NCBI GenBank assembly: GCA_027309085.1 | Contig: DAIDDL010000008.1 | Span: 1-64,000 of the forward strand | Origin: Sulfobacillus sp. | Lineage (GTDB): Bacteria > Bacillota > Sulfobacillia > Sulfobacillales > Sulfobacillaceae | Direction of reading: 5' to 3' | DNA: 64,000 bases | Shown: positions 1,094-26,144 of the stretch, one piece after another | How the letters are laid out: each line of letters starts with the position of its first letter | Numbering within the stretch: the stretch's first letter is position 1 | Position numbers and translations under genes: made by a program | The notes under the pieces: generated by a model | Seen by the model: the letters and a program-made list of their open reading frames with translations, nothing else | Database searches by the model: none | What the model was told of the DNA's origin: nothing

Positions 1094-1110
1094 GAGACAA
1101 ATGTGAGACG
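1094..1110 (+). promoter_or_regulatory. TGAGAC-type direct-repeat operator candidate (11-bp spacing)
   Basis: TGAGACAAATGTGAGACG upstream of the STAND ATPase gene; matches sites at 3931, 12215, 19047, 20712 and 26128. Confidence 0.5.
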
Positions 1111-1176
1111 TTTGTTGATACACAATGAATTAAAGTAAAACTACAGAAATGATAGGGACTACTCACCGGGCTGGCT

Positions 1177-3147
1177 GTGAGAGATCTGGGAGGGATGTGG
1201 CCTTTCCGGATGGTGGGTGTGGAGGAGGAATCGTCGGTGATCAGAGAAGCGGAATCATATAGTGACAGCAAAAATCCCATGGAACTGCTGCTCGGACGGG
1301 AAACGGAATGGCAGACGTTGACGGAGGTGCCCCGGCAGTCTTTGGCCCAGCGCCAGATTCTTTACCTGTGGGGACCGCCGGGATCAGGGAAATCCTACTT
1401 GCTGCAAAGATTTTTTGACACATTGGCTGACTGGCCTGGCGAAGTGGTGTTTACCGAGGCCCAGGATGGAGATTTGAGCTATGGGGACCTGGCGGCCGGG
1501 CCCGCTCAAGTGCACCAGACGAAAGGCCCGGAATCCCGGGCCCAGAGATTCGTGCATGCGGTAGAGGCGGTGGAAGACAAGTCGCAGCTGGTCTGGATTA
1601 TCGACGATTATGACGCATGGCACACGCAGCAGGCGTGGCTGTGGCCCAAGGTTGCGACGATGCGCCGCGCAGGCGCCTGCGTTATCTTGGCGGGACGGGA
1701 ATCTCCCCGGAGGCTATGGCCGGGGGAGCAGGCGACCTCTATCGTTTCGAGGCGGCTGAACGACTTTGATGCGGAAACTGCGACCCAGCTGTGCCGGGAC
1801 CTAAACGTCGAGGACCCGCACGTGATTCGCGAAGCCATTGCAATTTCCCGGGGACGCCCGCGCCTGTTGTGCACGATGGTGGACGGCTTCAAACTGCTGA
1901 CCGAGGATTGGCCCGCTGAGAATGACACGGAGCTGGAGCGGATGCGGCCGGGGATGGCATCGTTTCTACTGGAGCAGGTGTGTCATCCCGGCTCCCGGCG
2001 GTTGGCGTGGCGGGCTGGGCAAGGCAGTGACCGGGATGTCGATGCGCTGGTGGCTGCGGCCGCTATGACCCCGATGTTCAACCGCCAGCTTCTGACCGAG
2101 GTGGTAGGGTCGCCCGCTGTCCTGTCCTCGTGGGACGCCTTAGTGTCCTTGCCGTTCCTGGACGCCTATCAAGGAGGATTTTTCAGCATGCCGGCGACGC
2201 TCCGCATCCGGATCCGCCAGGCCGCGCAGCAGGCCCGGCCCTGGATGTGGGAACAGTGGACCCGCAAGATGGCCGCCTATTATCTGCACGATGCTCTGCA
2301 TAAGCAGACGACGCACACCGATGTCTTCTGGGACCGCATCCTCCCCCTCATCCGCACCAAAATTGGCAACCCATTGTTCGCGGAGGACGAGTGGCTGGAT
2401 GGCAATTTCAGGCTGACATGGGGCAGACTCTCCGAACTGCCGGGACTCACGTATGACATGGCTGACCCCTTATACGCCCAGGCTGAGGTGCTGACGGCAT
2501 TTCACCACGACGGCACGGCGGCAGGCTACGCGGTGGTGGACCGGAGCCGGGAGACCATGCTGGTGATTCATGACGTGGTGGAGACGTTTGGCGAGCCATT
2601 TGTCGGACCGATGCTGTTTTCGGTGCTGATGCGGCAATTCCCCTCCCTGGGCAAGGTGCTGTGCGCGGCCAAAATGCAGTCCACCACGCGAATGGCGCCG
2701 ATTCTGGACCATGTGGGCTTCGGCCTGCCGATTTGCAAGGAGGATACGGCCCCTGTGCGCATGCTGGATCTGGAAACCCTAGGCTATCACGCCTGGCTGG
2801 CTCATATTTTGCGCGCTCCCCAGGCGACGGCGCCGGAGAAACCCGTGCCGGTGATTCAGGAAGCCTTGCAGGTGCTGTCCCAGGAATCCCAGTTGGAGGA
2901 AACGGCCCTGGCGGCGTATTGGCAGCAGGTGGGGGGTCAAGGCGGAGTGCAGGCATGGTTCCTGGATGCCCTGACGTCCGCGGACCTGGGTGCAGCCATC
3001 GGGGGCAAGACACTTCTGGCGTTGTACTATCTGGATAAGCAGGGGACGCATGAAGAGCTGGCGGAGCGGCTGCACCTGTCCCGGGCCACATACTTCCGCA
3101 ATCACCGGACCGCTCTGGACCGGATGGCGCAGGCGCTGTTTGGCTGA
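1177..3147 (+). CDS. STAND/AAA-type P-loop ATPase with central GNAT-like region and C-terminal HTH
   Basis: Walker A GPPGSGKS, Walker B VWIIDDYD, C-terminal EELAERLHLSRATYFRNHRTALDRM; paralogous to 37283..39331. Confidence 0.85.
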   Translation: MRDLGGMWPFRMVGVEEESSVIREAESYSDSKNPMELLLGRETEWQTLTEVPRQSLAQRQILYLWGPPGSGKSYLLQRFFDTLADWPGEVVFTEAQDGDLSYGDLAAGPAQVHQTKGPESRAQRFVHAVEAVEDKSQLVWIIDDYDAWHTQQAWLWPKVATMRRAGACVILAGRESPRRLWPGEQATSIVSRRLNDFDAETATQLCRDLNVEDPHVIREAIAISRGRPRLLCTMVDGFKLLTEDWPAENDTELERMRPGMASFLLEQVCHPGSRRLAWRAGQGSDRDVDALVAAAAMTPMFNRQLLTEVVGSPAVLSSWDALVSLPFLDAYQGGFFSMPATLRIRIRQAAQQARPWMWEQWTRKMAAYYLHDALHKQTTHTDVFWDRILPLIRTKIGNPLFAEDEWLDGNFRLTWGRLSELPGLTYDMADPLYAQAEVLTAFHHDGTAAGYAVVDRSRETMLVIHDVVETFGEPFVGPMLFSVLMRQFPSLGKVLCAAKMQSTTRMAPILDHVGFGLPICKEDTAPVRMLDLETLGYHAWLAHILRAPQATAPEKPVPVIQEALQVLSQESQLEETALAAYWQQVGGQGGVQAWFLDALTSADLGAAIGGKTLLALYYLDKQGTHEELAERLHLSRATYFRNHRTALDRMAQALFG

Positions 3148-3158
3148 GGGAATGGAAG

Positions 3159-3195
3159 AAGAGAACGCCGCCTACTGTCCGGGCGGCGTTCTCTT
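3159..3195. terminator. Bidirectional terminator between convergent genes
   Basis: AAGAGAACGCCGCC / GGCGGCGTTCTCTT inverted repeat. Confidence 0.85.
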
Positions 3196-3855
3196 GTGAG
3201 AGGCGGAATAGAAGACGACTTGCGCGTAGTCTTCAAGGGCCAGGCGCCGGGACTTCTGGATGGCCTCTCCGAAGTCCTCCCCTGGCCCCGACAAGGTGTA
3301 CCCGACGCCAAATGGCGATTGCCAGGAACGCTCACCGGCGATGCGCCGAGCGACAGCTTGGGCGTCCGCCGAGCGCGCCGCGGGGAGGAAAATGAGCCAT
3401 TCTTTCCGGTCCCAATCGATGATGGCGTCATAATCACGGACGTGCTGTGGAAGATGTGGAGCTATACCATGGGGTCCTGTCCCGTGATTGTCGGGAGAGT
3501 CCATCACCAACACATACACATACGCCCAGCAAGGGTCCAGACGGGTCTGGCTGCGTCTGATATAGGCGTGAATGCGTGCCTCACCGGCCTTGCGGGTCAG
3601 GATGCGACTAGGGGATTCGGCGGGAAACTGCGGTACATTCTGAATTGGCGAGGAATGCAGCGCTGCTGGCCATGCGGCTAGCAGCTTTCTCAATCCCCGG
3701 TGGACGTAGCGCGTGGCACTACTCGGAGATGTATGCATCATCTGGCCTATTGCAGCAGCCTTGTGTCCCTGAGCGGCAAGTTGAATGGCTTCGAGCTCCA
3801 TGGGTGTCAGCGCAGGGATGGCTGCCTCATCTTTTTCATATGCTTTCCGGGACAT
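3172..3855 (-). CDS. LuxR-type HTH protein with C-terminal degenerate GGDEF-like domain
   Basis: N-term 'LTPMELEAIQLAAQGHKAAAIGQMMHTSPSSATRYVHRGLRKLL' HTH; C-term GGDEF-like fold pattern but the signature position reads DRKEW. Confidence 0.75.
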   Translation of the reverse strand: MSRKAYEKDEAAIPALTPMELEAIQLAAQGHKAAAIGQMMHTSPSSATRYVHRGLRKLLAAWPAALHSSPIQNVPQFPAESPSRILTRKAGEARIHAYIRRSQTRLDPCWAYVYVLVMDSPDNHGTGPHGIAPHLPQHVRDYDAIIDWDRKEWLIFLPAARSADAQAVARRIAGERSWQSPFGVGYTLSGPGEDFGEAIQKSRRLALEDYAQVVFYSASHKRTPPGQ

Positions 3856-3930
3856 GCGGACTCGCCTTCTCTGCTCAGCTAATGCATTAAAACAACGTCT
3901 TGAGTGTAAAGGCTCGGGCGAGGTGAGACA

Positions 3931-3947
3931 GTCTCACGAAATGTCTC
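3931..3947 (-). promoter_or_regulatory. TGAGAC-N7-GAGAC operator candidate (12-bp spacing)
   Basis: Minus strand TGAGACATTTCGTGAGACT, ~76 bp upstream of the HTH/GGDEF-like start; adjacent palindrome GTGAGACAGTCTCAC. Confidence 0.5.
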
Positions 3948-4129
3948 ATTCTGATGTGCTGCGCCAAGGTTTAACTCGTACTCCATCGGAACCCAAGCAC
4001 GCAGGTCATGAGTGGGCCAACTGTCATGCGCGGAGGTGAACAAGAGGAAGGCAACATGGATCTCTGCGCATGTTGTGGGGACCGAGTGAAGGCTATGGTG
4101 AATGTACTACTCGGTCCCCGGGCAACAAG

Positions 4130-4336
4130 TCATACTTGTGCTGCATACTCTCTTGGATGATCCGCATTCAATTTTTGCAAGCACTTTGGACACAGCAACG
4201 CATCAAGTCGAAGTTCGTGGCCCGCAACTGCGGAAAGCCTGACGTTGTGCCACGAACGGATATCTGGCAATTGTCCCTGCCATGATTTTCTTCTGGCGGT
4301 TCCAACAACTTCCAATCCGCAAATATCGCATCCCAT
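4130..4336 (-). CDS. Small zinc-finger (CxxC...CxxC) protein
   Basis: 68 aa with CDICG ... CPKC pairs, AAGGAG-like RBS upstream. Confidence 0.5.
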   Translation of the reverse strand: MGCDICGLEVVGTARRKSWQGQLPDIRSWHNVRLSAVAGHELRLDALLCPKCLQKLNADHPREYAAQV

Positions 4337-4610
4337 TGTTTGTGCTCCTTGTTATAGTAATGTGTTGGTCAATGACAAGAAAAATATATCTTATGCCATC
4401 AGTATTTAAAGTCTCATGGCATATCCCAATCTCTATCTCGATCGGCCATGCTGCGTAAAAGATAAAACGCCTTCGCATCGGGGAGAGGGGAGAGCTCAGA
4501 ATCTAGTCCAGCTGCGTCCAACTTGGTAAGGCAATCGGGCTAGTCCAACGAAGGAACGGTTTGAACCGCCGGCGATACTGGAATTGCGACAGCCACTGGT
4601 ACTGTTATGT

Positions 4611-4652
4611 CCTCGACGCTTTGGTACCGTACCAGGTACGAAAGCGTCGAGG
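4611..4652 (+). other. Leader hairpin upstream of glycosyltransferase gene
   Basis: CCTCGACGCTTTGGTACC / GGTACGAAAGCGTCGAGG, 18-bp arms with one mismatch, directly before RBS and GTG start. Confidence 0.5.
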
Positions 4653-4664: not shown

Positions 4665-5489
4665 GTGAATGGTCGCCCGACGGCAAGATCACCCATGGTG
4701 GTGAACGGATCCATAGGTCCCGAGACGAATGTGATAGGCGTGGTCATTCCGACTTATAACGAAGTCGAGAATATTGATCCATTAGTGAATGGGCTATTGA
4801 GCAGGGAATCACTTCACGTCATTTTTATTGATGACGGATCTACCGATGGGACCCAGGAATGTATTAAAGAATGGGAAAATCGCGAACCTAGCCGCGTTTT
4901 TTTATTGGCACGAGATCATAAGCTTGGACTGGCAACGGCTTATCTTACAGGATTCCATTATCTTATGACAAACCCTTCTATCAGATGGATTGCTCAGATG
5001 GATGCTGATGGCTCTCACAATGTTGATGACCTTTTCAAGATGGTTGCCGTGGGTTCTACAGGGTATGACCTTGTTGTTGGGTCGCGTTATGTTGATGGTG
5101 GACAGACGGTAAACTGGGCACGGATGCGACGCTGGGTGTCAAGAGCAGGATCGTTATACAGTAGCTTCCTACTCCAGTGCTCAGTAAATGATATGACCGG
5201 AGGGTTTAAATTATGGGATCGGGACTTACTGCGAAATCTTCCGCTAGAGGCTGTTAGGTCTACTGGATATGGTTTTCAGATAGAAATGAATTATTTGGCA
5301 ATGTTGGCCGGTGCTTGCGTGACCGAAGTCCCTATAACCTTTCGAGAACGCATACACGGAAAATCAAAAATGTCCTGGAAAATAGCTCTTGAAGCATTAA
5401 TCATGGTTTGGCGACTACGAATGCACCGAATGAAGCTTCAAGGTCGGATTGACCAGAATGCTAGAGTGATTAACTTAAGGCGAACGTAA
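4665..5489 (+). CDS. GT2 family polyprenol-phosphate (dolichol-phosphate-like) mannosyltransferase
   Basis: VVIPTYNEVENIDPLV..., FIDDGSTDGT, QMDADGSH, MTGGFKLW typical of DPM1-like GT2. Confidence 0.9.
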   Translation: MNGRPTARSPMVVNGSIGPETNVIGVVIPTYNEVENIDPLVNGLLSRESLHVIFIDDGSTDGTQECIKEWENREPSRVFLLARDHKLGLATAYLTGFHYLMTNPSIRWIAQMDADGSHNVDDLFKMVAVGSTGYDLVVGSRYVDGGQTVNWARMRRWVSRAGSLYSSFLLQCSVNDMTGGFKLWDRDLLRNLPLEAVRSTGYGFQIEMNYLAMLAGACVTEVPITFRERIHGKSKMSWKIALEALIMVWRLRMHRMKLQGRIDQNARVINLRRT

Positions 5490-5561
5490 AACGCCTCTCT
5501 GTGTCACGTGACAATGTCAAAGTTGCACTACTGATCTGATTAAATTACACGGGAGAAAGAT

Positions 5562-7202
5562 ATGAGCGCTATGCCGAAATCGCTTCAAAGGAAAAATACT
5601 TCGTCGTCCCCTAGCCCAGAAAGCGAAGGCTCTGGCCTGAGGAAATCGCGGTTGAATGAACGGAGCATTATGGCAATCGGTACATTGCTATTGTACATTG
5701 GACTTGGTGCTTATTTGACATTTCACGTACACTATTATTCAGGAGATTCTGCATCCCGCGTTGCCAATGCCTATTACGTGATTTTCGGACGGAATGCGCA
5801 TTTAGGAGCTGTTGGCTTTGTGTGGAATCCTTTACCTAGTATATTCGAACTGCCTTTCGTATCCCTATATTCATTTTGGCCAGCACTAGTAAGTAAAGCA
5901 TTTGCTGGAGATATCGTTTCTGCGATTTTTGGAACGATAGGTGTCCTAGCGCTTATGAGAATATTGAATAATTTACGAGCCCCTAGGTTTGGAGTTATAC
6001 TGATCGCTGTCGTGTACGCGCTTAATCCATTAATCGCTCTCTATGCAGCTAATGGTATGTCTGACTTGATGTTCGTATCCTGCACGTTGGCCAGTTTTAG
6101 CGGTGTGTTAGATTATCTGACCACTAATTCTCTGAGTCGACTGAGCGCGGGCGCTTTTTGGATTGCCATAGGATTTGGAATGCGTTACGGGGCTGTGCCC
6201 TTTGGGGCGTTTATGATTATCGGGTTAATTATCGGATTGTTGGGCCGCGTAAAACCATCTCGCTGGATGGGGGCGGCCGTTATCCTGGGCGCCCCGGTCG
6301 TTTACGCAGGAGGTTTGTGGATGTATTTTAGTTGGATGATAATGAAAAATCCACTCTATTTCCTAGACTCATCCTACGGGAATTTGGCCCAAACCTCTAC
6401 GGGTACATACGTAACGCGGAGCACTACATTGGCCATGCATCATGTGCTGGGAACGCTCCTATACGTGGGCCACTTCACCTTTCTCTTTTGGCCTATTCTT
6501 CTCGGTATTCCTCTGACGGCGTTCTTTTTATTTGGAACCAAACGTGATCCGCGTGCTGCTATTTTATTAGCGGGAACTCTTGGGGCTGTGACCTTGGAGT
6601 TAATATTTGTCTACAAGGGAAGCCTTGCTCCATGGGATCGGTTTTATATAAGTTTCATTCCGAATGGGATTCTGTTGTGTGCTTTTGGTATATCCAAGGT
6701 CACAAAAAGTTACACAGACTTTACTAAATACCTGATTTGGTTTGTGGCCGTTTTGGTCTTTGCTGCGGGCGACGTGGGGACTGTGCTGTCTCTCCAGACG
6801 AAGGCTCTGGGGCATCCCGATGGGCGTGTCATTGATACCGCGTGGGCTGGAAAGATTTATCCGGTCGATCCATTCCACTCTTCCCATGCCATCATTCGCT
6901 ACCTTTCCGATCATCCTCACCTCACAGTTCTTGTTGACACGTTTCGAGGCTATTCGCTCGTGATGCGCGCTCCTCATCTGAACCAATTTGTTATTGACTC
7001 TGACTATGATTTTCAGGAGATTCTCCATAACCCCAGAGGACGTGTGGATGCCTTTCTGGTCCCGGAACCATCGGGTGTAGGAAAGCTTGATGCAATAAAT
7101 AGGGCGTGGCCGGGAATGTGGTCAGGGCACGTGCAGTGGGCTATTTTGATTAAGTCTTTTCCGAACTGGCGACTGTATGCCATAACGGAAAACGCTCCCT
7201 GA
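5562..7202 (+). CDS. Multi-TM GT39/PMT-like glycosyltransferase
   Basis: 546 aa, many TM helices, downstream of DPM1-like gene; 'YSGDSASRVANAYYVIFGRNAHLGAVGFVWNPLPS'. Confidence 0.65.
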   Translation: MSAMPKSLQRKNTSSSPSPESEGSGLRKSRLNERSIMAIGTLLLYIGLGAYLTFHVHYYSGDSASRVANAYYVIFGRNAHLGAVGFVWNPLPSIFELPFVSLYSFWPALVSKAFAGDIVSAIFGTIGVLALMRILNNLRAPRFGVILIAVVYALNPLIALYAANGMSDLMFVSCTLASFSGVLDYLTTNSLSRLSAGAFWIAIGFGMRYGAVPFGAFMIIGLIIGLLGRVKPSRWMGAAVILGAPVVYAGGLWMYFSWMIMKNPLYFLDSSYGNLAQTSTGTYVTRSTTLAMHHVLGTLLYVGHFTFLFWPILLGIPLTAFFLFGTKRDPRAAILLAGTLGAVTLELIFVYKGSLAPWDRFYISFIPNGILLCAFGISKVTKSYTDFTKYLIWFVAVLVFAAGDVGTVLSLQTKALGHPDGRVIDTAWAGKIYPVDPFHSSHAIIRYLSDHPHLTVLVDTFRGYSLVMRAPHLNQFVIDSDYDFQEILHNPRGRVDAFLVPEPSGVGKLDAINRAWPGMWSGHVQWAILIKSFPNWRLYAITENAP

Positions 7203-11979: not shown

Positions 11980-12214
11980 CTCGGAACAAAAGACAATCAT
12001 GGGCGTCTCCGGTGATTTCGTCGTGTATCGGTTGTCGTTGTTGACGCTGACCAGCACTTCACCACGTGTCGGCTTCGGGGCCCTTTTCTAGACATACATG
12101 CGGTTATTGTGGCCTAACGACGGTTTGAGCCTTATATCATGGCGGAGCAAATAAAAACTAACAAAGCCTTGTCACTGAAGCGTCCCAAACGAACCCTGCA
12201 AAAACACATACATT

Positions 12215-12231
12215 GAGACGTTCCCCGATAC
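12215..12231 (+). promoter_or_regulatory. TGAGAC-type operator candidate (one mismatch in second half-site)
   Basis: TTGAGACGTTCCCCGATACGGCAT, ~100 bp upstream of 12332. Confidence 0.35.
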
Positions 12232-12331
12232 GGCATCTTTTCTCGTTCTTCTTTACAATGATTTTACAGACACGGACAGTTTGTGCCAAATAAAAAAGCC
12301 TGCGCAAACCACGGGAAAAACGAGGTGACCT

Positions 12332-12556
12332 ATGAAAGCATTACGACGCGGCACAGTGATGGCCGGTGGGGTGGCAGTATTTTTGATCGCTATGCTCGTC
12401 ATGTTTTGGACCATTGACATTCTGCCCTTGGTGCTCTTTGGAGGAGTTATCGTCGTCTATGCATTCTTGTCTTCACGCCAAATGAGCCAGCGTAAAACAC
12501 GCGCCACTGGTATGGAACCTCACAGCAAGAAAAACGGAAAGGACGTTGTCTCATGA
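12332..12556 (+). CDS. Small membrane protein preceding GT2 synthase
   Basis: 74 aa, two TM helices, stop overlaps start of next gene (ATGA). Confidence 0.7.
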   Translation: MKALRRGTVMAGGVAVFLIAMLVMFWTIDILPLVLFGGVIVVYAFLSSRQMSQRKTRATGMEPHSKKNGKDVVS

Positions 12557-14796
12557 GCCTTGAACGGGTCTACTCGGAGGACATGGACAGCAGGATTGAT
12601 GCACCAGCCATCGAAGACGTTGATCTGTTTCCTGTCACTGGACCCGGGGGCCACGTCACCGACCCTGTCGACCCTAGTGCCGCATTCATTCTTGATTCCA
12701 CTGTAGCTCAGCAGGCTGGTGTCATTCCCTTCCGTTTTGAAAACGGCCATGTCTGTGTGGCGGCGGTCTTTCCCCTAAGTAAAGCGGCACAAGACGCTAT
12801 TAAGCGAATTGCCGCTCCAGTGAAAATTTATCGTTCCAGCGCTAGCGCCATTACGCACAGTCACCTGCGGGTCATGGGGGCTAAAGGGCATATGCGGGCC
12901 GCGACGCCATTCGGCGAGGTGGCCAAGAGTCTTGGCTTGACGACCGACGCGGACATTGATGACGCTTTAACTGAACAGGCGAAGAAGGGAGGGCGGCTTG
13001 GGCAGATTTTGGTCAATCACCAGGTGCTGACTTACTGGGATGTAGCAAGCGTGCTGTCGGCACAAACGGCGCTTCCCCTCGTTAATTTGCTCGCCCAGGA
13101 TGTTGCTCACATCGCGTTCACACCCAATACAGCGAAAGTATGGGAAGCATTTTCGGAAGATTTCTGGCGTCGCCACCGGATGGCGCCCATAGGGTGGGAA
13201 AGCCACGCAATTATTTTGGCGGTTGAGAATCCTACGCAGTGGCAAGGGATCGCTGAAGTCGCGCGTCAGTTGCAAAGTCCGGTGAACACTATGATTTCTG
13301 GTAAAAGGGACATTGAAGCAGTTCTCGACGAACGATATCGGCAAGAAGACATGACAACGAGCCGAGATAGCCTGCTCATCTTTCGCCCAGAGGACTCCGC
13401 CAAACAGACGGTCACACGCCGTCAGGGGATTGCCGCCGCAAGTATAGTGGTGATGGTGGCAGGGGCAATGATATGGAAACTGGACCTGACATTCGCTGTG
13501 CTCAGCAGTCTTCTCATTATTATGTACTCTGTGACCATTGGGTACCGATTGTGGATGATTCGTCAAGGCACGGACATTCCTGCTGAATCGCTCAGCACCT
13601 CAGATGAATTGGCTTCTCTGGACGACCGGGATTTGCCGGTGTACACGATTTTAGTTCCGGCTCGCGAAGAAGCGGCGGTTTTGCCAGCACTGACCAAGGC
13701 GCTTGATGAACTGGACTATCCCAAAGACCGCTTGGACGTCAAACTGTTGCTGGAAGAAGATGATGATGAGACCATTCATGCTGCACGCTCAGCGAACTTG
13801 CCTAGTTTCATTGACATCGTCATCGTGCCAGCGGATAATCCCCGGACAAAACCTAAGGCTTGCAACTACGGTTTGCTACGGGCGCGGGGAGAATATGTGA
13901 CCATTTTTGATGCTGAGGATATACCTGAACCGCTGCAACTCAAGAAAGCTATTCTGGCGTTTCGCAAACATGATGATAAACTGGCGTGTGTTCAAGCGAA
14001 ACTATCCTACTTCAACGCAAACCAAAATCTTTTGACCCGCTGGTTTACGGCCGAATATGCGTCCTGGTTTGATTTGTTTTTGCCATCGTTGTACGCAGCC
14101 AAGTTGCCCATCCCCTTGGGGGGCACGTCGAATCACTTTCGCACAGACCGATTACGCGAACTAGGTGGATGGGATCCTTATAATGTCACGGAAGATGCGG
14201 ACCTCGGCATACGTCTGTACAAGGCGGGTTATTATGCCTCGGTCATTGATTCCAATACCTATGAAGAAGCGAATTCAGAGTTTGTCAACTGGGTTCGCCA
14301 GCGTTCACGCTGGATTAAAGGATATATTCAGACATGGTTGGTGCATATGCGCCACCCTCTGAAGCTCTACCAGTCCATGGGGCCCCGCGGATTCTGGGGG
14401 TTTCAGATGTCGATTTTAGGGACTCCTCTCATGTTTCTTCTGAACCCTTTATACTGGTTTTTAACGAGTTTGTGGTTTATGACGAACTGGCATATAATTC
14501 CCTCTCTATTTCCACCGGGCATCTATTACTTGGGAATGATCAATTTGCTTGGAGGAAACTTTATTTTTACCTATATCAATGCACTAGGCGCGGCCAAACG
14601 TGGTAACTGGGAGCTGGTACCTTACACACTGCTGACGCCTATCTACTGGAGCATGATGTCTTTAGCCTCTTGGAAAGCCTTGCTGCAATTGATTACCAGA
14701 CCGTCGCATTGGGAAAAGACGATTCACGGGTTAAGTGCTCCTCATCAACTCCAGACAATTGCGAACGCGGCGCCATTACAGGAATCGACAATGTAA
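12553..14796 (+). CDS. Membrane GT2 (NfrB/cellulose-synthase-like) glycosyltransferase with N-terminal MshEN (GspE-N) c-di-GMP-binding domain
   Basis: N-term 'FGEVAKSLGLTTDADIDDALTEQAKKGGRLGQILVNHQVLTYWDVASVLSAQTALPLVNL' MshEN pattern; GT2 'TILVPAREEAAVLPALTKALDELDYPKDRLDVKLLLEEDDDET', 'TEDADLG', 'QRSRWIKG'. Confidence 0.88.
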   Translation: MSLERVYSEDMDSRIDAPAIEDVDLFPVTGPGGHVTDPVDPSAAFILDSTVAQQAGVIPFRFENGHVCVAAVFPLSKAAQDAIKRIAAPVKIYRSSASAITHSHLRVMGAKGHMRAATPFGEVAKSLGLTTDADIDDALTEQAKKGGRLGQILVNHQVLTYWDVASVLSAQTALPLVNLLAQDVAHIAFTPNTAKVWEAFSEDFWRRHRMAPIGWESHAIILAVENPTQWQGIAEVARQLQSPVNTMISGKRDIEAVLDERYRQEDMTTSRDSLLIFRPEDSAKQTVTRRQGIAAASIVVMVAGAMIWKLDLTFAVLSSLLIIMYSVTIGYRLWMIRQGTDIPAESLSTSDELASLDDRDLPVYTILVPAREEAAVLPALTKALDELDYPKDRLDVKLLLEEDDDETIHAARSANLPSFIDIVIVPADNPRTKPKACNYGLLRARGEYVTIFDAEDIPEPLQLKKAILAFRKHDDKLACVQAKLSYFNANQNLLTRWFTAEYASWFDLFLPSLYAAKLPIPLGGTSNHFRTDRLRELGGWDPYNVTEDADLGIRLYKAGYYASVIDSNTYEEANSEFVNWVRQRSRWIKGYIQTWLVHMRHPLKLYQSMGPRGFWGFQMSILGTPLMFLLNPLYWFLTSLWFMTNWHIIPSLFPPGIYYLGMINLLGGNFIFTYINALGAAKRGNWELVPYTLLTPIYWSMMSLASWKALLQLITRPSHWEKTIHGLSAPHQLQTIANAAPLQESTM

Positions 14797-17029: not shown

Positions 17030-18655
17030 TTAAGCTTGTGGCTTAAGACTTTGATGCAAAATTTGCTCCGCTAGCCCAATGAGTCCAGACTTGGTGGAGG
17101 CGATATTGCCGTGCCATGTGCCGCGGGTTTGAGGCGCCACCATGGCTTCTGCTACTGTCAAGGGTTCCAGTGATGCGGATGCTGCAGAAACGGCGGTCTG
17201 CGGAGCGCTTTGCGGGAATGCGGCCAGAGACCACCGCAGGTAGCGTACCCCATCCGGCTGCTTGACGGCATCCGTCCACTCCACGTCGACATAGGTGGAA
17301 CGCGGACCTCCCACATAGTTAGCGGGAAGTGTAACGGCGTACACGGTAGCCACCACTCCCGGCACGAGCTGGAAGGACTGCGCGGCTGCAATATTGTCGC
17401 CGTGATACAATAGACAGTTATGAAATCCGTAAGCGGCGAGCATGCTGGCACTGGCAGCGCTCCACACCTCAACCATGGCCTCACGCCCAGTGTTGGTACT
17501 GACATACATATCGGCCAGTGTGGCCGAATGAGGACCTAATATCGACGACTCGTTGGCGTGATAGACGGGCGTGTGTACGAATCCGTTTAAACCCGGAATC
17601 ATGGCTGCCAGCGCATTGTGGTGAATCGGCTGGGGCTTGCCAAAGCTGCCTTTTGTCAGCGAGAACAGGGGTGCTAGCAAGAAGAACACAATACCGGATA
17701 AAACAATGGCGGCTGTGAGCCGTCCCACGCCAGCGCGGGGTATACCAGTTTGGGCTTGGGTTCCCGGCATAAAGAGGCCAAAGGGTTTGATCAGAGCTAT
17801 CAGCAGGACCGTCAGTATGGCAAAGAGAACGAATCCCAGTACGGGATGAATGTAGGCGAAGGTGAAATGCGGGCCGATCACATGGACCGCCAGCACAATG
17901 GCCACCAGCCGGAACCAGTTCAGCACCAGCGCCCCGGTGAGGGCAATGACTGTCAGGTAGGCTTTTGACTGCCACCTTCCGTTCAACAGAAACCATATGA
18001 CGGGAATAACAATAGCCGAACCCAGCAAACTGTCTGCGCCGCTGCAGGCTTGCGCCACAATCACAGGAACTTCCAAACTGCGGTAGGCTATATCAAAGGT
18101 TCCAAAAGGCTGAATGGCATGAATCCAGCTGAACTGAGATGTCGAGACTTGCAGAATCCGGATTGCCCAGTTGACTAAGATTGTTTGTGTTTCGTTGGCA
18201 ATCGCTTCGAACACTGGAGGCCATACCAGGAGTAGATAGATCAAGGGGGCCATCACCTTGCGTGTGGCTCCGATCCCCCAAAATAGCCAGGTCATGGCAA
18301 GAATCCACAGGGGCCAGAGCAACAGGCCGGCGTGGTCAAACACAAATGCGGTGGGCCATCTCGCTGGGCCTACAACCAATGCCAACCCGGTAATGGCGGC
18401 GAGGCTCACGCCTAAAATAGCATCGAGCTCGCTGTCATCCATCCCTTCTGCGGGAAGCGCCAACAAGTTCCAAGATGCCCACCCTATGGCCAGAATCGGT
18501 ATCCAAATCAAATCGGCAATGGGGGTGTCCGCTAAAATGTTCTGCCATAGAGGCGAGGCATAGGCTAAAAGGGGAGCGGTGGAGAGCCCCACCCAGAGAA
18601 GCCAAAACAGGGTGAGACTCCGCCGCTGGATGTTCGAGACCGTACTCCGCATCAT
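17030..18655 (-). CDS. Exosortase with C-terminal EpsI-like extension
   Basis: Multi-TM; conserved Cys in 'VIVAQACSGADSLLGSAIVIP', Arg in 'VLNWFRLVAI', His in 'FAYIHPVLGF'; ~240 aa soluble C-terminal region. Confidence 0.88.
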   Translation of the reverse strand: MMRSTVSNIQRRSLTLFWLLWVGLSTAPLLAYASPLWQNILADTPIADLIWIPILAIGWASWNLLALPAEGMDDSELDAILGVSLAAITGLALVVGPARWPTAFVFDHAGLLLWPLWILAMTWLFWGIGATRKVMAPLIYLLLVWPPVFEAIANETQTILVNWAIRILQVSTSQFSWIHAIQPFGTFDIAYRSLEVPVIVAQACSGADSLLGSAIVIPVIWFLLNGRWQSKAYLTVIALTGALVLNWFRLVAIVLAVHVIGPHFTFAYIHPVLGFVLFAILTVLLIALIKPFGLFMPGTQAQTGIPRAGVGRLTAAIVLSGIVFFLLAPLFSLTKGSFGKPQPIHHNALAAMIPGLNGFVHTPVYHANESSILGPHSATLADMYVSTNTGREAMVEVWSAASASMLAAYGFHNCLLYHGDNIAAAQSFQLVPGVVATVYAVTLPANYVGGPRSTYVDVEWTDAVKQPDGVRYLRWSLAAFPQSAPQTAVSAASASLEPLTVAEAMVAPQTRGTWHGNIASTKSGLIGLAEQILHQSLKPQA

Positions 18656-18918: not shown

Positions 18919-19046
18919 CGCGTTTATCCTTCCTTCGCTCTTTCTTTATAATTCGCGTGTTGTGTTTCAATTGCCCACAGGTTGAAAACAAACTATTTTA
19001 TAATTGGACTGACGGCATACCAGCGCGGGTAGCAGTGCCCGTGTGA

Positions 19047-19063
19047 GTCCCATCTGCCGTCTC
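19047..19063 (-). promoter_or_regulatory. TGAGAC-type operator candidate upstream of exosortase operon (one mismatch)
   Basis: Minus strand TGTGAGACGGCAGATGGGACTCAC, ~130 bp upstream of 18918. Confidence 0.45.
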
Positions 19064-19068: not shown

Positions 19069-19809
19069 TTAAACGGAGGATTGGGAATCAGGCAAAGTCA
19101 GGGAGGCACTAGTGGGTGACTGGAGAACACGGCGCTCCCTGTCAATTCCGGGATGAAGCTGGTAAGGGGCCCGCTGCCGGGACTTGCGGGCGCGCTTTTC
19201 CTTATACATGGCTTGGTCGGCCCGGTCTACTAGAAGCTGGAGAGAGTCTCCCGGTTCCCACTGGGCAACTCCGGCGGAAAACTGCAATCCAGGCTCAGCT
19301 CGGCGCAAGCGGTAAAGTGTCTCGCAGGCCGTCTTCCGCAACGTATTGGGTAGGGCAAGAATGAACTCATCTCCCGCCCACCGGATAAGTTGGTCGGTGC
19401 GCCGGATGTTGCCGAGCACCATGTGGACCAGATGACACAGCAGGCGGTCACCTGCCTTGTGGCCATAGGCATCATTGGTCTGTTTCAGATTGTCGACGTC
19501 GATGAAAATGATCGAAAACGGATTCTCTTCACGCGACTGCTGCAGCATGTGCAGCAGCAAAATTTCACCTGTCCGCCGCGTGAGTGCCCCTGTTAAGGAG
19601 TCCCACTCTTCGAGGTGGGGCGCTGACTCGTCCGCCGCTGCAATGGTCCCGTAGCGGCGCAGAAAGTCGGTAAAGACCAAGCGCACCGTGTGGTAAATTT
19701 CTCCGCGTGTAATCTGCAAGGCGGCCACCATGTCATCGATGGAAGCCCCTTGCGCCATCAGCGCGACCGCCTGGTCGTAATGCGAATCAGTGTTCGAATG
19801 GGTGGGCAT
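19069..19809 (-). CDS. HTH-GGDEF protein (diguanylate cyclase, AGDEF variant)
   Basis: N-term HTH 'YDQAVALMAQGASIDDMVAALQITRGEIYHTVRLVF'; 'DSLTGALTRRTGE', 'FIDVDNLKQTNDAYGHKAGDRLL', 'WAGDEFILALP', 'ADQAMYKEKR'. Confidence 0.9.
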   Translation of the reverse strand: MPTHSNTDSHYDQAVALMAQGASIDDMVAALQITRGEIYHTVRLVFTDFLRRYGTIAAADESAPHLEEWDSLTGALTRRTGEILLLHMLQQSREENPFSIIFIDVDNLKQTNDAYGHKAGDRLLCHLVHMVLGNIRRTDQLIRWAGDEFILALPNTLRKTACETLYRLRRAEPGLQFSAGVAQWEPGDSLQLLVDRADQAMYKEKRARKSRQRAPYQLHPGIDRERRVLQSPTSASLTLPDSQSSV

Positions 19810-20070
19810 GAAATACGCCTCCTTGCTGATTCTGCGACTCTACAGGTCAGGTAGGTCAATCCTGAAATTGTCAGCAATTTTTTATGCCGTAATGAGTGGC
19901 GATATTGTAGGACAGTACGAAACCTTTGCCGAATGCCGCCAGAACAGCGAAACTATATCGTTTTATTGCAACCATAGCGGATTTGCGTCTGAGATGCAGT
20001 GCTAATTAGGGTCGCATATTCCGTATCATCTCTGCAGTCGAGCTATGACCCAGTTGTCACCGTGATTAAG

Positions 20071-20134: not shown

Positions 20135-20587
20135 TTAATTCTGAGCGCGATGGCGCCATGCGGAGAAAGCCCAGGGAAGCACCAGGACTAAAGGGATTCC
20201 TGCTGCCCATGGCACTTCAGGCAGCTCTCCCGTTGCAAAGTTTGCCTCTTGCATTTCAATTCCCGTATTGGACCATGTGTCGTTCAAAGGAAGGGTAATC
20301 GTGGATGTCGTGTACTGTCCTGATTTCGTCACATCGCCATCGTATGTCGGAAGCGGTGTTATATCTGACGGACTACTTTTGGAAAAAGCGTAGACACTGA
20401 CATATTCCCCAACATCAAGACTTCCCCATGTCCAGGTAGCTGTTCCGGTCGTGGGACTTGTTTCCGTAATGGCTATCGTGCCTTCTTGAGTTGAGGTCGA
20501 TCCGGCCATTGCCAAACTTCCCAGTGCCAGTACGGCTGCAGCGGCAATTCCCACAACACCGGAGAGGCGCCATAGTGGTGACGTCAT
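20135..20587 (-). CDS. Secreted protein with putative exosortase sorting tail (LPEVP-1)
   Basis: N-term signal peptide; C-term GELPEVPWAAGIPLVLVLPWAFSAWRHRAQN (motif-TM-basic). Confidence 0.8.
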   Translation of the reverse strand: MTSPLWRLSGVVGIAAAAVLALGSLAMAGSTSTQEGTIAITETSPTTGTATWTWGSLDVGEYVSVYAFSKSSPSDITPLPTYDGDVTKSGQYTTSTITLPLNDTWSNTGIEMQEANFATGELPEVPWAAGIPLVLVLPWAFSAWRHRAQN

Positions 20588-20711
20588 GAATTCATCGTTC
20601 CTTTCTCTAAAGACAGCTTGCCGCTAAGTCACCATAGCCTCAAATTATAGGAAAGGCATGATGACGTTTCTAAGATAGTTCACACGAAGGATAAGGGCAG
20701 TAGCGAATGCC

Positions 20712-20728
20712 GTCTCAATAACGGTCTC
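20712..20728 (-). promoter_or_regulatory. GAGAC-N7-GAGAC operator candidate
   Basis: Minus strand GGGAGACCGTTATTGAGACGGCAT, 125 bp upstream of 20587. Confidence 0.5.
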
Positions 20729-21004: not shown

Positions 21005-24000
21005 ATGATTCTGGCTGGATCCTTGGCAACCACTCTCGTCTCCCCTCTGGCTTACGCAGCCTCTCTGCCCGCAGCCCTTACGAATTTGTCCCTGACCGCG
21101 AGCGGTCAGGCGGCTGCCGGTCAGACAGTGACGTTCACAGCAACCTCTCAGGGGTCTCCAGCGGAGTACCAGTTTTGGACTGAGACGGCGCAAGGCTGGA
21201 AAATGATTCAAGACTATTCGCCCACAAGACAGGTCAGTCTGCCTCTTGAGGCAGGAAGCTACATTGTCGCCGTCTATGCGCTGAGCGCGGCAGCGGTTCA
21301 ATCTGGTTCGTTTAGCCAGGCGCTGGTCCGCACGCTGATTGTCAATGTGAATAGCGCGGTTCACCTTACGGCTCCGGCGACCGGCACTCAAAACCAAGAG
21401 ATGAATATTGAAGCGTCCGCCACCAATCTGATAACGCCCGTCTATCAATTCTGGGTGGAAAATCCGCAAGGACAGTGGACGTCCAGTGGGGGGTACCAGC
21501 CGGGGAGCGGGTACGTTTATACGCCGCCCGAAGCAGGGACGTACCGGACCATTGTGTACGCCAAGGATCCTGATGCTCCCAACAATGCCCAGGATGCGGT
21601 CTGGAGCCAGGCGCAGACATTTACCGTGGCTCCCGCAGGGAGTGCCGCGGGACCTTTGACGGCGGCACTTATCAATCCTCTGCCGGCTCTCGACAATCCG
21701 GAGGCCTTGCTGCTTGGACAAATCGCCGAAGTCCGGACAGTGGTGACCGGAGCCAACGGCAATCCCATAGCTGATGTGCCCGTGGTCTTTACCGCCACCA
21801 ACGATTCCAATCCTGCAGACCACGTGACGTTTCCCCAAGGGCTGAACGGCAATGCCGTGACCAATGCCGAGGGCATTGCCACCACTACTATCACCGTGAC
21901 TAATCCTGACGACAGCACGCCTCAGGCCCTGGCCGCCGACCCTTCTGCGGTCACTGCCGTGAGCTACCAGGTATCCGTGCCCTCTGCCTTCGGGACCTCT
22001 GTGGGCCAGGGACAGGTCCTGTTTGCCGCTGTCAATGAGAGCGGCACGGTGGTTAGCGGGTCAACAGGTCCCGTAGTGACGAGCCAGCGGGTGGGAACGG
22101 TGGCGCGTTCGCAACAGTATGCTTCTTTCCAGGCGGTCAGCAGCCCCGGGCAAGTGCCCATGCGGGCGAGTCTGGCGGCACAGTTTATTGTGCCGCAAGG
22201 ATCTGCTTCCTCCAACATTACGGACATCAGCCAGTCTTCGGGGGCCTACGGCCCCGGCAGCAACTGGCAGTCCACACCCGTCAGCATCGCATCTGGATTC
22301 GCAGCCGCCACCGTGCAGGTGGCATCATTGGGACTCTCGTCCGGAACCACCCTGACGATGACCTACACGCCGTCAGACGGCTCTGAGCCTTATACCCGCG
22401 TCCTGACCGGCCCACTCAGCGCATCCAATTTTGGTCTGCAAATCCCGGCGCAAAGTGCGGGAGGGGTCCTGACGTTTGCCTTGGTGGCCCCATCGGAGGT
22501 CGATGCCCAAAATGCGACCGGTGTCGCTTTGCAGTCGCTGACCATACGCAGCGGGGGTGCCGCAGCCGTGCAGGATGTGGCCGTACCTCCAGCCGATGTG
22601 GCGTGGACCGCTTCTCCCGTGGAGCTTACGGCATTCAGCCCCCTGACCGCGACCCAAGCGCAAGAGGACCTGGGCAGCCAGTACAGTGCGGCGTTGCAGT
22701 ATCAGGCGGCTGTGCCGGTATATCCGGAAGTCGGGGATGGCGTGGTAGAGTCACTCAGCGGGACCACAGTCGCCGGAGCATACTGGCTGCCTTCCCATAA
22801 TAATGGCTTCGGTCAAAATGTGCTGGTGGGAGGCCAGAAGGCGGTAGCAGTGCCCCCTTCCGAAGCCTTAACCACTCCAGCTGTGAGCCTTGGGTCAGGG
22901 GGGACGGTCAGTGCGGGACAGGCCGGCAGCGTGGAGCTTCAGGCCACATTGCAGATACCGGGGGTGAGTTTTGCTTTGCCTGGGCTCTACTCTTATGCAG
23001 CATTTGTTCCCGCATCTTCAGATGCGGCCGACGCGCCCGGCTACGCCCTGTCCGGGCAAACGGTCATGCTGACAGCACAGGTGAGAGACGGGAATGGCAA
23101 TCTGGTGCCCGCTGGCACCCCTGTGACATGGCAGGTAAGCGGGCCTGGGGTGCAGGTCATTGAACAGCAGAACCAGACGGGGCCCGAGGGCACCGCATCT
23201 CTTGTCGTGGAAGGCGGTGGCAGCGTGCAGGCGCTGATCTCGGCATTCAGCCAGGGCTATGACACGAGTGTCAGCGATGCGGGCGGCCGGGGATCCGAAA
23301 TTGGCCTGCAGTGGCTACCGGTCAGCCTGAGTTACACCCCGCCGGGAGCGTCCCTAATCACGGTGGCAAACGGCTTTGCCACCGCTCCGCCTTTGAGCCT
23401 CACAGCCGGCCGGCTCTACCAGTTCAGTGTGCAGGCCCTGGCCGGAACCCTCCCTATAAGCAATCTGCCTTTCACTGTCAGTGGAACCGGAAATGGGACC
23501 GTCAGCGCATCTAGCGCCACCTCCAATAACCAAGGACTAATCACGTTTAGCGGCACAGCGGACACTCCCGGAAGTCAAAGTGTCGCACTGGCTTTGAATT
23601 CTGACTTGCCGGGCACCGTGCTGATTGGCGGTCTGCCCGATGTAGGCCAAGGACCCACATCGGACTTTGCCCACCTGACCTTTCCCCTGCTCTGGCAGTC
23701 AGCGGGCGGGACGGAGTCGGTCCAGTGGTCGCCGGTTCCGCTGGCATTGGCGGCCACAGGGCAAACCGCTTGGCTGACCGTCAGTGTGGACAGCCCGGAC
23801 GGGAACCCAGAGCCCGGGGTTCCCGTAGCGTTCTCATTGTCTGGACAGCAAACCGCCGTGCTGAGCGCCTCAGCTGTGACCACTAACGCTGCCGGCCTGG
23901 CGCAGGTCGGGGTGTCGGCGGGAACACTGGGGGAGAGTGATACGGTCGTTGCCCAGACGCCGGGAACTGCCCAGCCGATTACAGCAAACTTGACATGGGT

Positions 24001-24625
24001 GTCGCCTCCCGGTCCCAGTACTTTGGCTCCGGTGTCCGTGGAGCTGAACGCCGGGACCAGTCCCGGCCAACTGACCGTGAATTTTTCACGGAACCTGAAT
24101 CCCGCCTCCGTCCTTCCAGATGGCGCTCAGTTTTCCGTTACAGACATGACAACTCATGACGCTTACCAAATTGAGTCGGCCGAGTGCCAAGGATCCCAAG
24201 TCATTCTAACCCTGTCACCGCAAAATCCCCGCTTGCCTGCAGGAGACCCAGTGGCGGTGGCTGTGGCGGCTGTGACACAAGACGGCGTCACGACGCCGAT
24301 TACGGACAACTATCAGCGGCCATCCCAGGCGGGGCCTGTTACCCTCTTTGCTCCATCCTCCCCTACCATATCCACCGAACTGTCAGGCGGCAATCTGGTC
24401 CTGACGCTCGGTAACGGGTCATCGGGGATTGCTGCCGGCCAGTCAGTGGTGGTCGTGCCGTCGAATACAGCGGGAAGCGTGGGCGGACTAGCGGCTGGCG
24501 ACGTGTATAGCATGGTCACGCAGGCCGCCACGGGGACGGAAACTCTAAGCATTCCCTACACTGCAGAGGGCTCTGTGACTTTTTCCGTTTACTTTAACGG
24601 AATCGAGGCCACAGTAGCGGGATAG
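21005..24625 (+). CDS. Large secreted Ig-like/Big-domain cell-surface protein (start may be CTG at 20975)
   Basis: 1206 aa, signal-peptide-like N-term, repeated 'YQFWvEnpqGqW..gY.P....Y.PpEAGtYr.iVYA' and Big-like modules. Confidence 0.8.
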   Translation: MILAGSLATTLVSPLAYAASLPAALTNLSLTASGQAAAGQTVTFTATSQGSPAEYQFWTETAQGWKMIQDYSPTRQVSLPLEAGSYIVAVYALSAAAVQSGSFSQALVRTLIVNVNSAVHLTAPATGTQNQEMNIEASATNLITPVYQFWVENPQGQWTSSGGYQPGSGYVYTPPEAGTYRTIVYAKDPDAPNNAQDAVWSQAQTFTVAPAGSAAGPLTAALINPLPALDNPEALLLGQIAEVRTVVTGANGNPIADVPVVFTATNDSNPADHVTFPQGLNGNAVTNAEGIATTTITVTNPDDSTPQALAADPSAVTAVSYQVSVPSAFGTSVGQGQVLFAAVNESGTVVSGSTGPVVTSQRVGTVARSQQYASFQAVSSPGQVPMRASLAAQFIVPQGSASSNITDISQSSGAYGPGSNWQSTPVSIASGFAAATVQVASLGLSSGTTLTMTYTPSDGSEPYTRVLTGPLSASNFGLQIPAQSAGGVLTFALVAPSEVDAQNATGVALQSLTIRSGGAAAVQDVAVPPADVAWTASPVELTAFSPLTATQAQEDLGSQYSAALQYQAAVPVYPEVGDGVVESLSGTTVAGAYWLPSHNNGFGQNVLVGGQKAVAVPPSEALTTPAVSLGSGGTVSAGQAGSVELQATLQIPGVSFALPGLYSYAAFVPASSDAADAPGYALSGQTVMLTAQVRDGNGNLVPAGTPVTWQVSGPGVQVIEQQNQTGPEGTASLVVEGGGSVQALISAFSQGYDTSVSDAGGRGSEIGLQWLPVSLSYTPPGASLITVANGFATAPPLSLTAGRLYQFSVQALAGTLPISNLPFTVSGTGNGTVSASSATSNNQGLITFSGTADTPGSQSVALALNSDLPGTVLIGGLPDVGQGPTSDFAHLTFPLLWQSAGGTESVQWSPVPLALAATGQTAWLTVSVDSPDGNPEPGVPVAFSLSGQQTAVLSASAVTTNAAGLAQVGVSAGTLGESDTVVAQTPGTAQPITANLTWVSPPGPSTLAPVSVELNAGTSPGQLTVNFSRNLNPASVLPDGAQFSVTDMTTHDAYQIESAECQGSQVILTLSPQNPRLPAGDPVAVAVAAVTQDGVTTPITDNYQRPSQAGPVTLFAPSSPTISTELSGGNLVLTLGNGSSGIAAGQSVVVVPSNTAGSVGGLAAGDVYSMVTQAATGTETLSIPYTAEGSVTFSVYFNGIEATVAG

Positions 24626-24690
24626 GCTTTTCAATGGCGGGAAGCACGGGAATAAAACAGCAAGTCACCCACTGAATATGGAGTGGTTCA

Positions 24691-24718
24691 GCAGGGCAGT
24701 CCTAAGGGGCTGCCCTGC
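24691..24718 (+). terminator. Hairpin terminator
   Basis: GCAGGGCAG-N10-CTGCCCTGC followed by TCT. Confidence 0.6.
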
Positions 24719-24859
24719 TCTGGTGCGCCCGGCGTCAGTGTGCTCTAGGATGACAGTCCTGAGAACCGTTCCAAGTGGTTAAGGGAAGGAAGTCCGGCGT
24801 AAGCCGGACTATACAAAGAAGCAACTGTTCCGTACCCTCAGAGAATGGTTTAGAGTCAT

Positions 24860-25080
24860 GGTAACATTCCGGCCCGGAGCATATTGATGGGATGGCCACC
24901 GTCCTTGCCCGTCAACCTTGCATGGGTCCTGGAGAGCATTGCGTGAGAGGTTGCCACTGACTGAGCAAGACGGCGAACATCGTTGGTATTGCTGGTGGTG
25001 GCGGGATTGACGAGCACCACTGCCATCCCCTGACCAGACAGCCATTCCGCTAAATTTCACAAATAAAGGCCGAGCAATTC
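24860..25080 (-). pseudogene. Possible IS110-type transposase remnant
   Basis: Minus frame 'NLAEWLSGQGMAVVLVNPATTSNTNDVRRLAQ...' resembles the IS110 'LAeWL..qG..VVLVNP' block, preceded by an in-frame stop. Confidence 0.35.
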
Positions 25081-25332
25081 CCTGCCGACAGTCAAATTCG
25101 ACAGCGGGTGAGCGGCCTTCCAGTGGTGAACGGTCTGCCGTCGTGCGCAAAGCCTTCGGCATGGGGACACCCGCGCAGGATGCCGGGAGAGCCGCACGCC
25201 TCCTCAGGTGCGGCCTGCTCCCCAAGCAATCTGTGGGCCAGATTGGCCTCCCGCTGATTTAAGCCAGTTGCGGGTTTTCCTTCATACAAAGCGCATCCGA
25301 AGATAGGTACTCAGGATAAAAGCATGGCCCCC

Positions 25333-25354
25333 CTAGCAGACTTGCGGCGTAAAA
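25333..25354 (-). repeat. 22-nt recurrent motif, copy 2
   Basis: ctagcagacttgcggcgtaaaa; pairs with 15455-15476. Confidence 0.5.
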
Positions 25355-25379
25355 TTCGCCCTCACAGGAATGTCCACAA

Positions 25380-26027
25380 CTATTGCGCTGCCGATCGGTG
25401 ATGCGCATTTCGCCGCAACATCCACAAAGCACCGACTGTCCCCAAAGCCACCAATGGCAACCCAGCTGCCAGTGGCACCTCGGGTAACTGTCCCACCACA
25501 CTTATTGGCGGGGTTTCGTCGTACACGGGAGCGGTGTCGTTTGTCGATGTTGTTAGATACATGTGAAATACCCCAGAATGATGAGGGACCAATTCGATAC
25601 TATATTGATCTCCCAAAGGTCCCAGTTGCGACGTTGGCGATATTGTAAAGGCGTATACAGCTGTAGCACTTTGCGACGGGCCTAGATGGGGATCCGGTGA
25701 GGATACCAAACTCGACGCTGTCACCGTAACAGATTTGTTTGTCGATTTGTTTGTCGAGTTATTGGTGATCTTAATGGTCGGAAGCGCATTGGGGTTACCC
25801 CCAGTTATTGACGGATAGGGAAATTCCCAAGTACCCCCCTTGTTGCCCGTGTCAAGAACAGTAATGGCCACATCCACGGTTGTGTTGGATTTCACCGTCT
25901 GAACCGAATTTATGGACAAACCGGTTACGACAAACTTCGGCGCAGGAGCAGCCAATGCCGTGCCTCCGAGCATGACCATACTGACGGCCATTCCCAATCC
26001 TAACAGCGATCCATACCGCTGTATCAT
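25380..26027 (-). CDS. Secreted protein with putative exosortase sorting tail (LPEVP-2)
   Basis: N-term signal peptide (GTALAAPAP); C-term GQLPEVPLAAGLPLVALGTVGALWMLRRNAHHRSAAQ. Confidence 0.82.
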   Translation of the reverse strand: MIQRYGSLLGLGMAVSMVMLGGTALAAPAPKFVVTGLSINSVQTVKSNTTVDVAITVLDTGNKGGTWEFPYPSITGGNPNALPTIKITNNSTNKSTNKSVTVTASSLVSSPDPHLGPSQSATAVYAFTISPTSQLGPLGDQYSIELVPHHSGVFHMYLTTSTNDTAPVYDETPPISVVGQLPEVPLAAGLPLVALGTVGALWMLRRNAHHRSAAQ

Positions 26028-26127
26028 TTATGCTATCCCCCTATCGTTCTCTGGCAATTTCCATGAATCACAAAGATCGTATCGTAATCGCATTTCCATA
26101 GCAGTCCCGGCTTCGCTATCTAACGGC

Positions 26128-26144
26128 GTCTCGAATATGGTCTC
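26128..26144 (-). promoter_or_regulatory. TGAGAC-N6-CGAGACG operator candidate
   Basis: Minus strand GTGAGACCATATTCGAGACGCCG, 101 bp upstream of 26027. Confidence 0.5.

Follow-up and report, generated by a model that had tools for sequence, protein, structure and literature searches.

What links an exosortase, its putative substrates, an exopolysaccharide (EPS) synthase and cyclic di-GMP (c-di-GMP) signalling proteins in Sulfobacillus sp., and which protein reads that link? Sulfobacillus is an acid-loving, mineral-leaching bacterium. In the stretch analysed here (contig DAIDDL010000008.1, positions 1 to 64,000; "the window", 64 kb), an initial annotation had described a tandem GAGAC half-site at six promoters and proposed it as the operator of an undescribed regulon. 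All six words were present in the window. The element proved to be a promoter of three tandem 12-bp boxes with a fixed -10, rather than a two-box word. We have very little doubt that it marks an undescribed surface-coat regulon conserved across the bacterial order. The element, its conservation, its targets and the co-occurrence were observed directly.

Structure of the promoter element

Exact GAGAC-N7-GAGAC pairs lie at 3931-3947, 20712-20728 and 26128-26144 (all minus strand), and an exact GAGAC-N6-GAGAC pair at 1094-1109 (plus strand). Copies with one mismatch lie at 12215-12231 (plus) and 19047-19063 (minus). The words are real, but the unit comprises three boxes and a -10. The extension beyond two boxes was seen in the orthologous 40-kb regions of ten relatives, whose orthologous promoters carry the same sites. 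The registers first assigned were inconsistent: the pairs at 20728 and 26144 are boxes 1 and 2, and the pairs at 3947 and 12215 are boxes 2 and 3. The 12-bp spacing had also been taken as exactly one helical turn; it corresponds to ~1.14 turns.

The consensus of 13 sites aligned on the last box (from G000, the genome of the window, and G004) was GAGAC-N5-TTGAGAC-N6-T-GRGACTG, N20, then the -10 TANNNT. Box 1 (GAGAC) is at 0, box 2 (TTGAGAC) has its GAGAC at 12, box 3 (GRGACTG) is at 24 and TANNNT at 51, exactly 27 bp after the start of box 3. In an alignment of 41 sites, every letter of the box 3 ACTG and every fixed letter (T, A, T) of the -10 was 90–100% conserved, and the 20 bp between box 3 and the -10 were unconserved. 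No conserved GG/GC (-24/-12, sigma-54) was found in the columns before the start region, which instead held the fixed TANNNT.

Two variants occurred. In most genomes, the promoters of a gene for a helix-turn-helix (HTH) protein with a degenerate GGDEF domain have boxes 2 and 3 only, without box 1. The promoters of the STAND ATPase genes form a second, also conserved site class, with an 11-bp pair, TANNNT at 26 or 27, and no ACTG of box 3.

Statistical support

The initial annotation had estimated that GAGAC pairs at this spacing should occur less than once by chance in 64 kb. Four of the 19 exact N6/N7 pairs of the 4.49-Mb genome lie in these 25 kb, where ~0.2 would be expected per 64 kb at the density outside. 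Genome-wide, the bare word is unenriched (19 copies vs 23 for the reversed control), and the remaining 15 pairs of this genome lack the full element. A genome scan of the bare word alone would therefore have been ambiguous, and the bare two-box word was dropped as evidence.

A position weight matrix (PWM) was trained on the 13 sites of G000 and G004 and tested on eight held-out genomes. It gave 25 matches above 18 bits. Crude gene calls placed 21 of these between genes, although 82% of the sequence is coding; 200 column-permuted matrices gave a mean of 0.10 matches (maximum 2). The element lies almost only upstream of genes, rather than within coding regions.

Whole genomes (61) were covered with the pattern GANAC-N5-TTGNGAC-N6-TGNNACTG-N20-TANNNT, allowing at most two mismatches; weaker sites were scored only in selected stretches. 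The pattern had 57 matches in 22 of the 61 genomes, against one for the reversed control. Every match falls in one order, and none was found in the 19 genomes of the class from outside that order. An order-wide search added no genomes to the first set. The two-box form had 32 matches, against one in the control.

A model-free count agreed with the boxes. In nine relatives, same-strand GAGAC pairs peaked at steps of 11 bp (12 pairs) and 12 bp (16 pairs), with at most five at any other spacing. Among 16 held-out sites of the two-box form, 11 had TANNNT at 27.

Genes downstream of the element

The genes downstream of the sites encode the exosortase, LPEVP-CTERM proteins, an MshEN-GT2 synthase, a PMT-like protein, a GT2 of ~400 aa, both HTH-GGDEF types, the STAND ATPase and other apparently secreted proteins. 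This gene content supports the initial proposal that c-di-GMP signalling is tied to protein sorting and EPS.

The exosortase gene (17030-18655, minus) encodes a member of the Exosortase_EpsH/exo_archaeo family with a C-terminal extension (PF09721 61.8, cut-off 25.7; TIGR04178 47.3, cut-off 23). It scored below the cut-off of every named subtype, and no named NCBIfam subtype covers this Gram-positive exosortase. In S. thermotolerans Kr1 (CP019454), the closest named relative of the window's genome, the exosortase is 80% identical. The site (19007-19063, minus; GAGAC/GGGAC/GGCACTG) has a poor -10 (TCAGTC) at the expected place. It has an orthologue in G004, and the element also lies upstream of Xrt in G005, G006, G009, G014, G022, G025, G032 and G033.

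Two LPEVP-CTERM proteins are putative substrates of the exosortase. LPEVP-1 (20135-20587, minus) is preceded by a site at 20672-20728 (minus; GAGAC/GAGAC/GCTACTG, -10 TATCTT). LPEVP-2 (25380-26027, minus) has a four-box site at 26076-26144 (minus; GAGAC from 26144, GAGAC from 26132, GATAG from 26120, GGGACTG from 26108), with the -10 TACGAT at 26081-26076. Neither the proteins nor their tails matched a Pfam or NCBIfam model. Most Sulfobacillales genomes with this exosortase also encode LPEVP tails.

LPEVP genes were found by searching all genomes for DNA encoding GQ/ELPEVP and then reading upstream. A site above 17 bits preceded 33 of ~53 assessable genes, 22 of the 33 being outside the PWM training set. 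The same threshold was reached by 2.4% of random 600-nt windows in regulon-rich regions and by none of 20,000 reversed windows. Several of the genes with a site lie hundreds of kb from the cluster (for example G002:C1:2530289, G003:C1:1473298, G011:C1:97431). The element also predicts more genes for surface proteins at other places in the genomes. With these predictions, the conservation at orthologous promoters in other species and the position almost only upstream of genes, the regulon proposal withstands the refuting checks set by the initial annotation. Of the LPEVP genes that the window's genome carries outside the window, the one on C138 has a two-box site (18.5 bits), and those on C86 and C95 have no site upstream. 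Against a regulon of all substrates, no recognisable site precedes ~20 LPEVP-CTERM genes in the genomes taken together; the regulon therefore covers only part of them. Genome G041 (family f2) provides a natural control: its contigs C26 and C23/C40 carry an exosortase (36% identical) and LPEVP proteins, and the motif, the STAND protein and the HTH-GGDEF protein were not found in it.

The EPS synthase (12553-14796, plus) is a GT2 polysaccharide synthase with an N-terminal c-di-GMP-binding MshEN domain. Its operon has a site at 12203-12259 (plus; AACAC/GAGAC/GATAC, -10 TACAAT at 12254-12259), of which G004 has a stronger version.

The six sites of the initial annotation are all real, but two target sites had been overlooked. 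The first (4574-4630, plus; GATAC/GCGAC/GGTACTG, -10 TACCGT) has 0 mismatches to the consensus pattern and is conserved in G004. It precedes genes for a GT2 glycosyltransferase (4665-5489) and a PMT-like membrane glycosyltransferase (5562-7202), a pair (4665-7202, plus) conserved with Xrt in relatives. The second (19971-20027, minus; GATAC/GCGAC/AGCACTG, -10 TATGGT) is conserved in G004, G002 and G003 and precedes a predicted HTH-GGDEF diguanylate cyclase (19069-19809, minus; AGDEF, I-site RRTD). A weaker candidate site (4388-4439, minus; 22 bits) lies before a small open reading frame of 68 aa and is also present in the near-identical G007.

Two further genes of this region are conserved in G004. 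A secreted protein of 1206 aa with Big_1 domains (21005-24625, plus) is encoded in the cluster and has no recognisable site. A Peptidase A4 (acid protease) gene (27753-28547, minus) adjoins the cluster and has no site upstream.

Candidate binders of the boxes

The initial annotation had named either HTH-GGDEF protein as a possible regulator and counted the STAND ATPase only as a target. The STAND gene does have boxes in its own promoter, but the protein also fits better as the binder than either HTH-GGDEF protein. The active HTH-GGDEF protein (19069-19809) is a target and is not near the cluster in all genomes; the degenerate one is discussed below. We consider the STAND ATPase the probable binder.

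The STAND gene (1177-3147, plus) encodes an NB-ARC/ORC-like ATPase, the proposed activator. AAA_22 and AAA_16 scored above cut-off in its NTPase, and the fold matches ORC/Cdc6, NLR and Avs3 NTPases. AlphaFold helices at ~610-655 form a C-terminal HTH, which has weak Sigma70_r4/DUF1492 matches and is not LuxR-type. In motif-positive genomes, residues 601-640 had a mean identity of 74% to the window protein, vs 10-46% in the blocks before residue 600; SRATYFRNHR in the HTH is nearly invariant. Between NTPase and HTH lies a mixed alpha/beta domain (AlphaFold; residues ~410-535, window 2404-2781) that Pfam did not recognise and that could be the sensor.

The STAND promoter (1094-1136, plus) has GAGAC at 1094-1098 and 1105-1109 (an 11-bp step), a third box GATAC at 1117-1121 and the -10 TAAAGT at 1131-1136, 26 bp after the second box. 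Boxes were present in all 20 STAND promoters read from motif-positive genomes: 17 with the 11-bp pair and TANNNT at 26 or 27, the other three with a 12-bp pair. None of the six STAND genes of motif-negative genomes had a box pair at its promoter. Nearly every motif-positive genome had a STAND homologue. Among them is G011, a complete genome in which the degenerate HTH-GGDEF protein has no clear orthologue. In family f2, only a fragment of the STAND protein was found: 26 aa of a STAND C-terminus with HVSRATYFRSHR at a contig end of G037, which belongs to a different family of the order; nothing clear was found in G036. The STAND protein is favoured because boxes of constant sequence suit an HTH that is itself constant, and a head-to-tail array suits a STAND activator that oligomerises.

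Several observations weigh against this assignment. STAND autoregulation also fits with the gene being only a target. In the draft genomes G017, G030 and G036 the motif was present (one match each) and no STAND homologue was detected; conversely, G013, G021, G016 and G056 have a STAND protein but no motif, and the second STAND paralogue of G023 has no boxes. No sensor repeat domain or family was recognised in the STAND protein. The idea that paralogous STAND genes carry their own tandem repeats of another sequence found no support at their promoters. Finally, the degenerate HTH-GGDEF gene was found in nearly all motif-positive genomes and never in a motif-negative one. The phylogenetic profile alone leans slightly towards the HTH-GGDEF protein, since STAND homologues are present in four genomes that lack the motif.

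Two STAND genes were noted separately. A second STAND-type ATPase in the window (37256-39331, plus) is conserved in G004 and has a similar C-terminal HTH (HLSRPTYYRMLRQSV). Neither a GAGAC array nor other exact 10-12-bp repeats occur in its promoter. On G031:C380, STAND is reduced to a C-terminal open frame of 118 aa, and the adjoining HTH-GGDEF gene is intact and keeps its boxes. No LPEVP genes were detected, and regulon decay is a possible reading.

The degenerate HTH-GGDEF protein (3172-3855, minus) is the main rival to STAND. It combines a LuxR/GerE-type HTH with a GGDEF fold whose active site is lost (WDRKEW). The RxxD of its I-site (R140, D143), five residues before the active site, is invariant in 16 members, and the protein probably supplies control by c-di-GMP. 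It could itself bind the boxes in response to c-di-GMP, with STAND being only a target or acting elsewhere. Such binding would suit the genuine GerE-type HTH, the invariant I-site and the distribution of the gene, as well as the boxes in its own promoter (3903-3947, minus; GAGAC 3947-3943, GAGACTG 3935-3929, -10 TACACT 3908-3903), whose two-box form (boxes 2 and 3) is repeated at orthologous promoters. However, its recognition helix differs strongly between genomes that share the same boxes, and G011 keeps the motif without a clear orthologue. Dimeric LuxR-type proteins are also expected on dyads, rather than on two to four head-to-tail boxes. On balance, we think it unlikely that this protein is the binder. 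A palindrome, GTGAGACAGTCTCAC (3926-3940), overlaps box 3 of this promoter and is absent from the G004 promoter.

Somewhat less likely still is a regulator encoded elsewhere, with the STAND and HTH-GGDEF genes both being mere targets. The candidates considered were cluster neighbours only, and autoregulation is no proof of identity; but the STAND and HTH-GGDEF genes accompany the motif as a pair, and the geometry of the pair's own sites is distinct and conserved. The last box could also be the -35 of an alternative sigma factor of the extracytoplasmic function (ECF) type, the upstream boxes being secondary, since GRGACTG lies ~20 bp before the -10, resembling ECF -35 positions, and its ACTG is almost invariant. 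We regard this as very improbable: the upstream boxes are equally conserved and exactly phased, the -10 is the housekeeping-type TANNNT and the STAND promoters lack the ACTG. Chance or the selection of look-alike words, to which the unenriched bare word might point, has next to no probability and is already refuted at any reasonable threshold by all out-of-sample tests (held-out PWM, whole-genome, LPEVP, two-box and model-free).

Proposed mechanism

We favour an arrangement in which the STAND protein binds the boxes and the degenerate GGDEF protein senses c-di-GMP; here, binding, activation, the identity of the binder and the role of c-di-GMP are what we infer. The element would be the activator-dependent promoter of a cell-surface regulon. 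Its head-to-tail half-sites, centred at approximately -37, -49 and -61 (reckoned with the -10 hexamer at -12 to -7), may stand in for a -35, the class II activator position, upstream of a housekeeping-type TANNNT. Once switched on, STAND would oligomerise head to tail, so that its C-terminal HTHs occupy the boxes, and would bring in RNA polymerase in a MalT-like manner. The variant site (11-bp step, -10 at 26) would give STAND control of its own gene. The product of the neighbouring gene, the LuxR-type HTH/degenerate-GGDEF protein, would take up c-di-GMP at its invariant I-site and either gate STAND or assist it.

The predicted output comprises the exosortase with its LPEVP-CTERM substrates, a diguanylate cyclase and an EPS synthase activated by c-di-GMP. 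EPS and the sorting of coat proteins would thereby be turned on together. As the regulon contains the cyclase (19069-19809), a putative c-di-GMP receptor and the MshEN EPS synthase, a positive loop among c-di-GMP, EPS and surface-protein sorting is likely from the gene content. Taken as a whole, a STAND-activated surface regulon with c-di-GMP input is the best explanation, and we hold it with moderate confidence. More tentatively, the system may be a two-protein c-di-GMP switch of a new type, in which the LuxR-HTH/degenerate-GGDEF receptor signals to a STAND activator on 12-bp arrays and so turns on exosortase sorting and exopolysaccharide jointly.

Comparison with known systems

The nearest precedent, the PEP-CTERM box, was found by the same logic. 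It precedes 99 of 167 PEP-CTERM genes and was tied to sigma-54 and PrsR, and no PEP-CTERM was reported in Firmicutes (Haft 2006, PMC1569441). RpoN dependence has been shown for one PEP-CTERM gene (PMC9850573), and in a bioleaching comparison Leptospirillum alone was found to have the exosortase system (PMC5418355). The PEP-CTERM/sigma-54/PrsK-PrsR system and the present one share a cis element upstream of most exosortase-substrate genes, a tie to EPS and a co-occurring regulator. They differ in that the former has a sigma-54 -24/-12 promoter, an enhancer motif and a two-component regulator in Proteobacteria, whereas the latter has tandem 12-bp boxes, a TANNNT -10, a STAND ATPase and c-di-GMP proteins in Bacillota. 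No PrsK-PrsR pair was found among the scanned cluster genes; the genome was not searched for it. The present element is an independent analogue of the PEP-CTERM box.

MalT-type STAND activators likewise have a C-terminal DNA-binding domain, several sites per promoter and an oligomerisation model (PMC10427625). Here, in contrast, the HTH is not of the LuxR type but weakly similar to sigma-70 region 4, the boxes form a regular 12-bp array and no sensor repeat was recognised. SARP/AfsR regulators also use direct repeats at about one-turn spacing near the -10 that replace the -35, and AfsR has a STAND nucleotide-binding oligomerisation domain; their repeats lie 8 bp from the -10 and their OmpR-type DNA-binding domain is N-terminal (PMC10936776). 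In the present system, the start of the last box is 27 bp from the -10, and the HTH is at the C-terminus. A SARP reading was rejected, there being no OmpR-type N-terminal domain and no repeats 8 bp from the -10. AfsR/SARP and MalT offer parallels in mechanism, and the present system is not counted among either.

The degenerate HTH-GGDEF protein shares the LuxR-type HTH with VpsT, which has a receiver domain in place of GGDEF, and the degenerate GGDEF with kept I-site with PelD-type receptors. No description of a LuxR-HTH/degenerate-GGDEF regulator was found in the literature searched, and none of this regulon in the open-access literature.

Significance

Regulation of exosortase sorting outside the Proteobacterial sigma-54/PrsR system was likewise not found described in the literature searched. 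A Gram-positive exosortase system now has substrates, a promoter element to base resolution and two regulator candidates. The element allows substrates to be predicted from DNA alone. Joint control of surface attachment by c-di-GMP and a STAND ATPase in bioleaching bacteria becomes testable.

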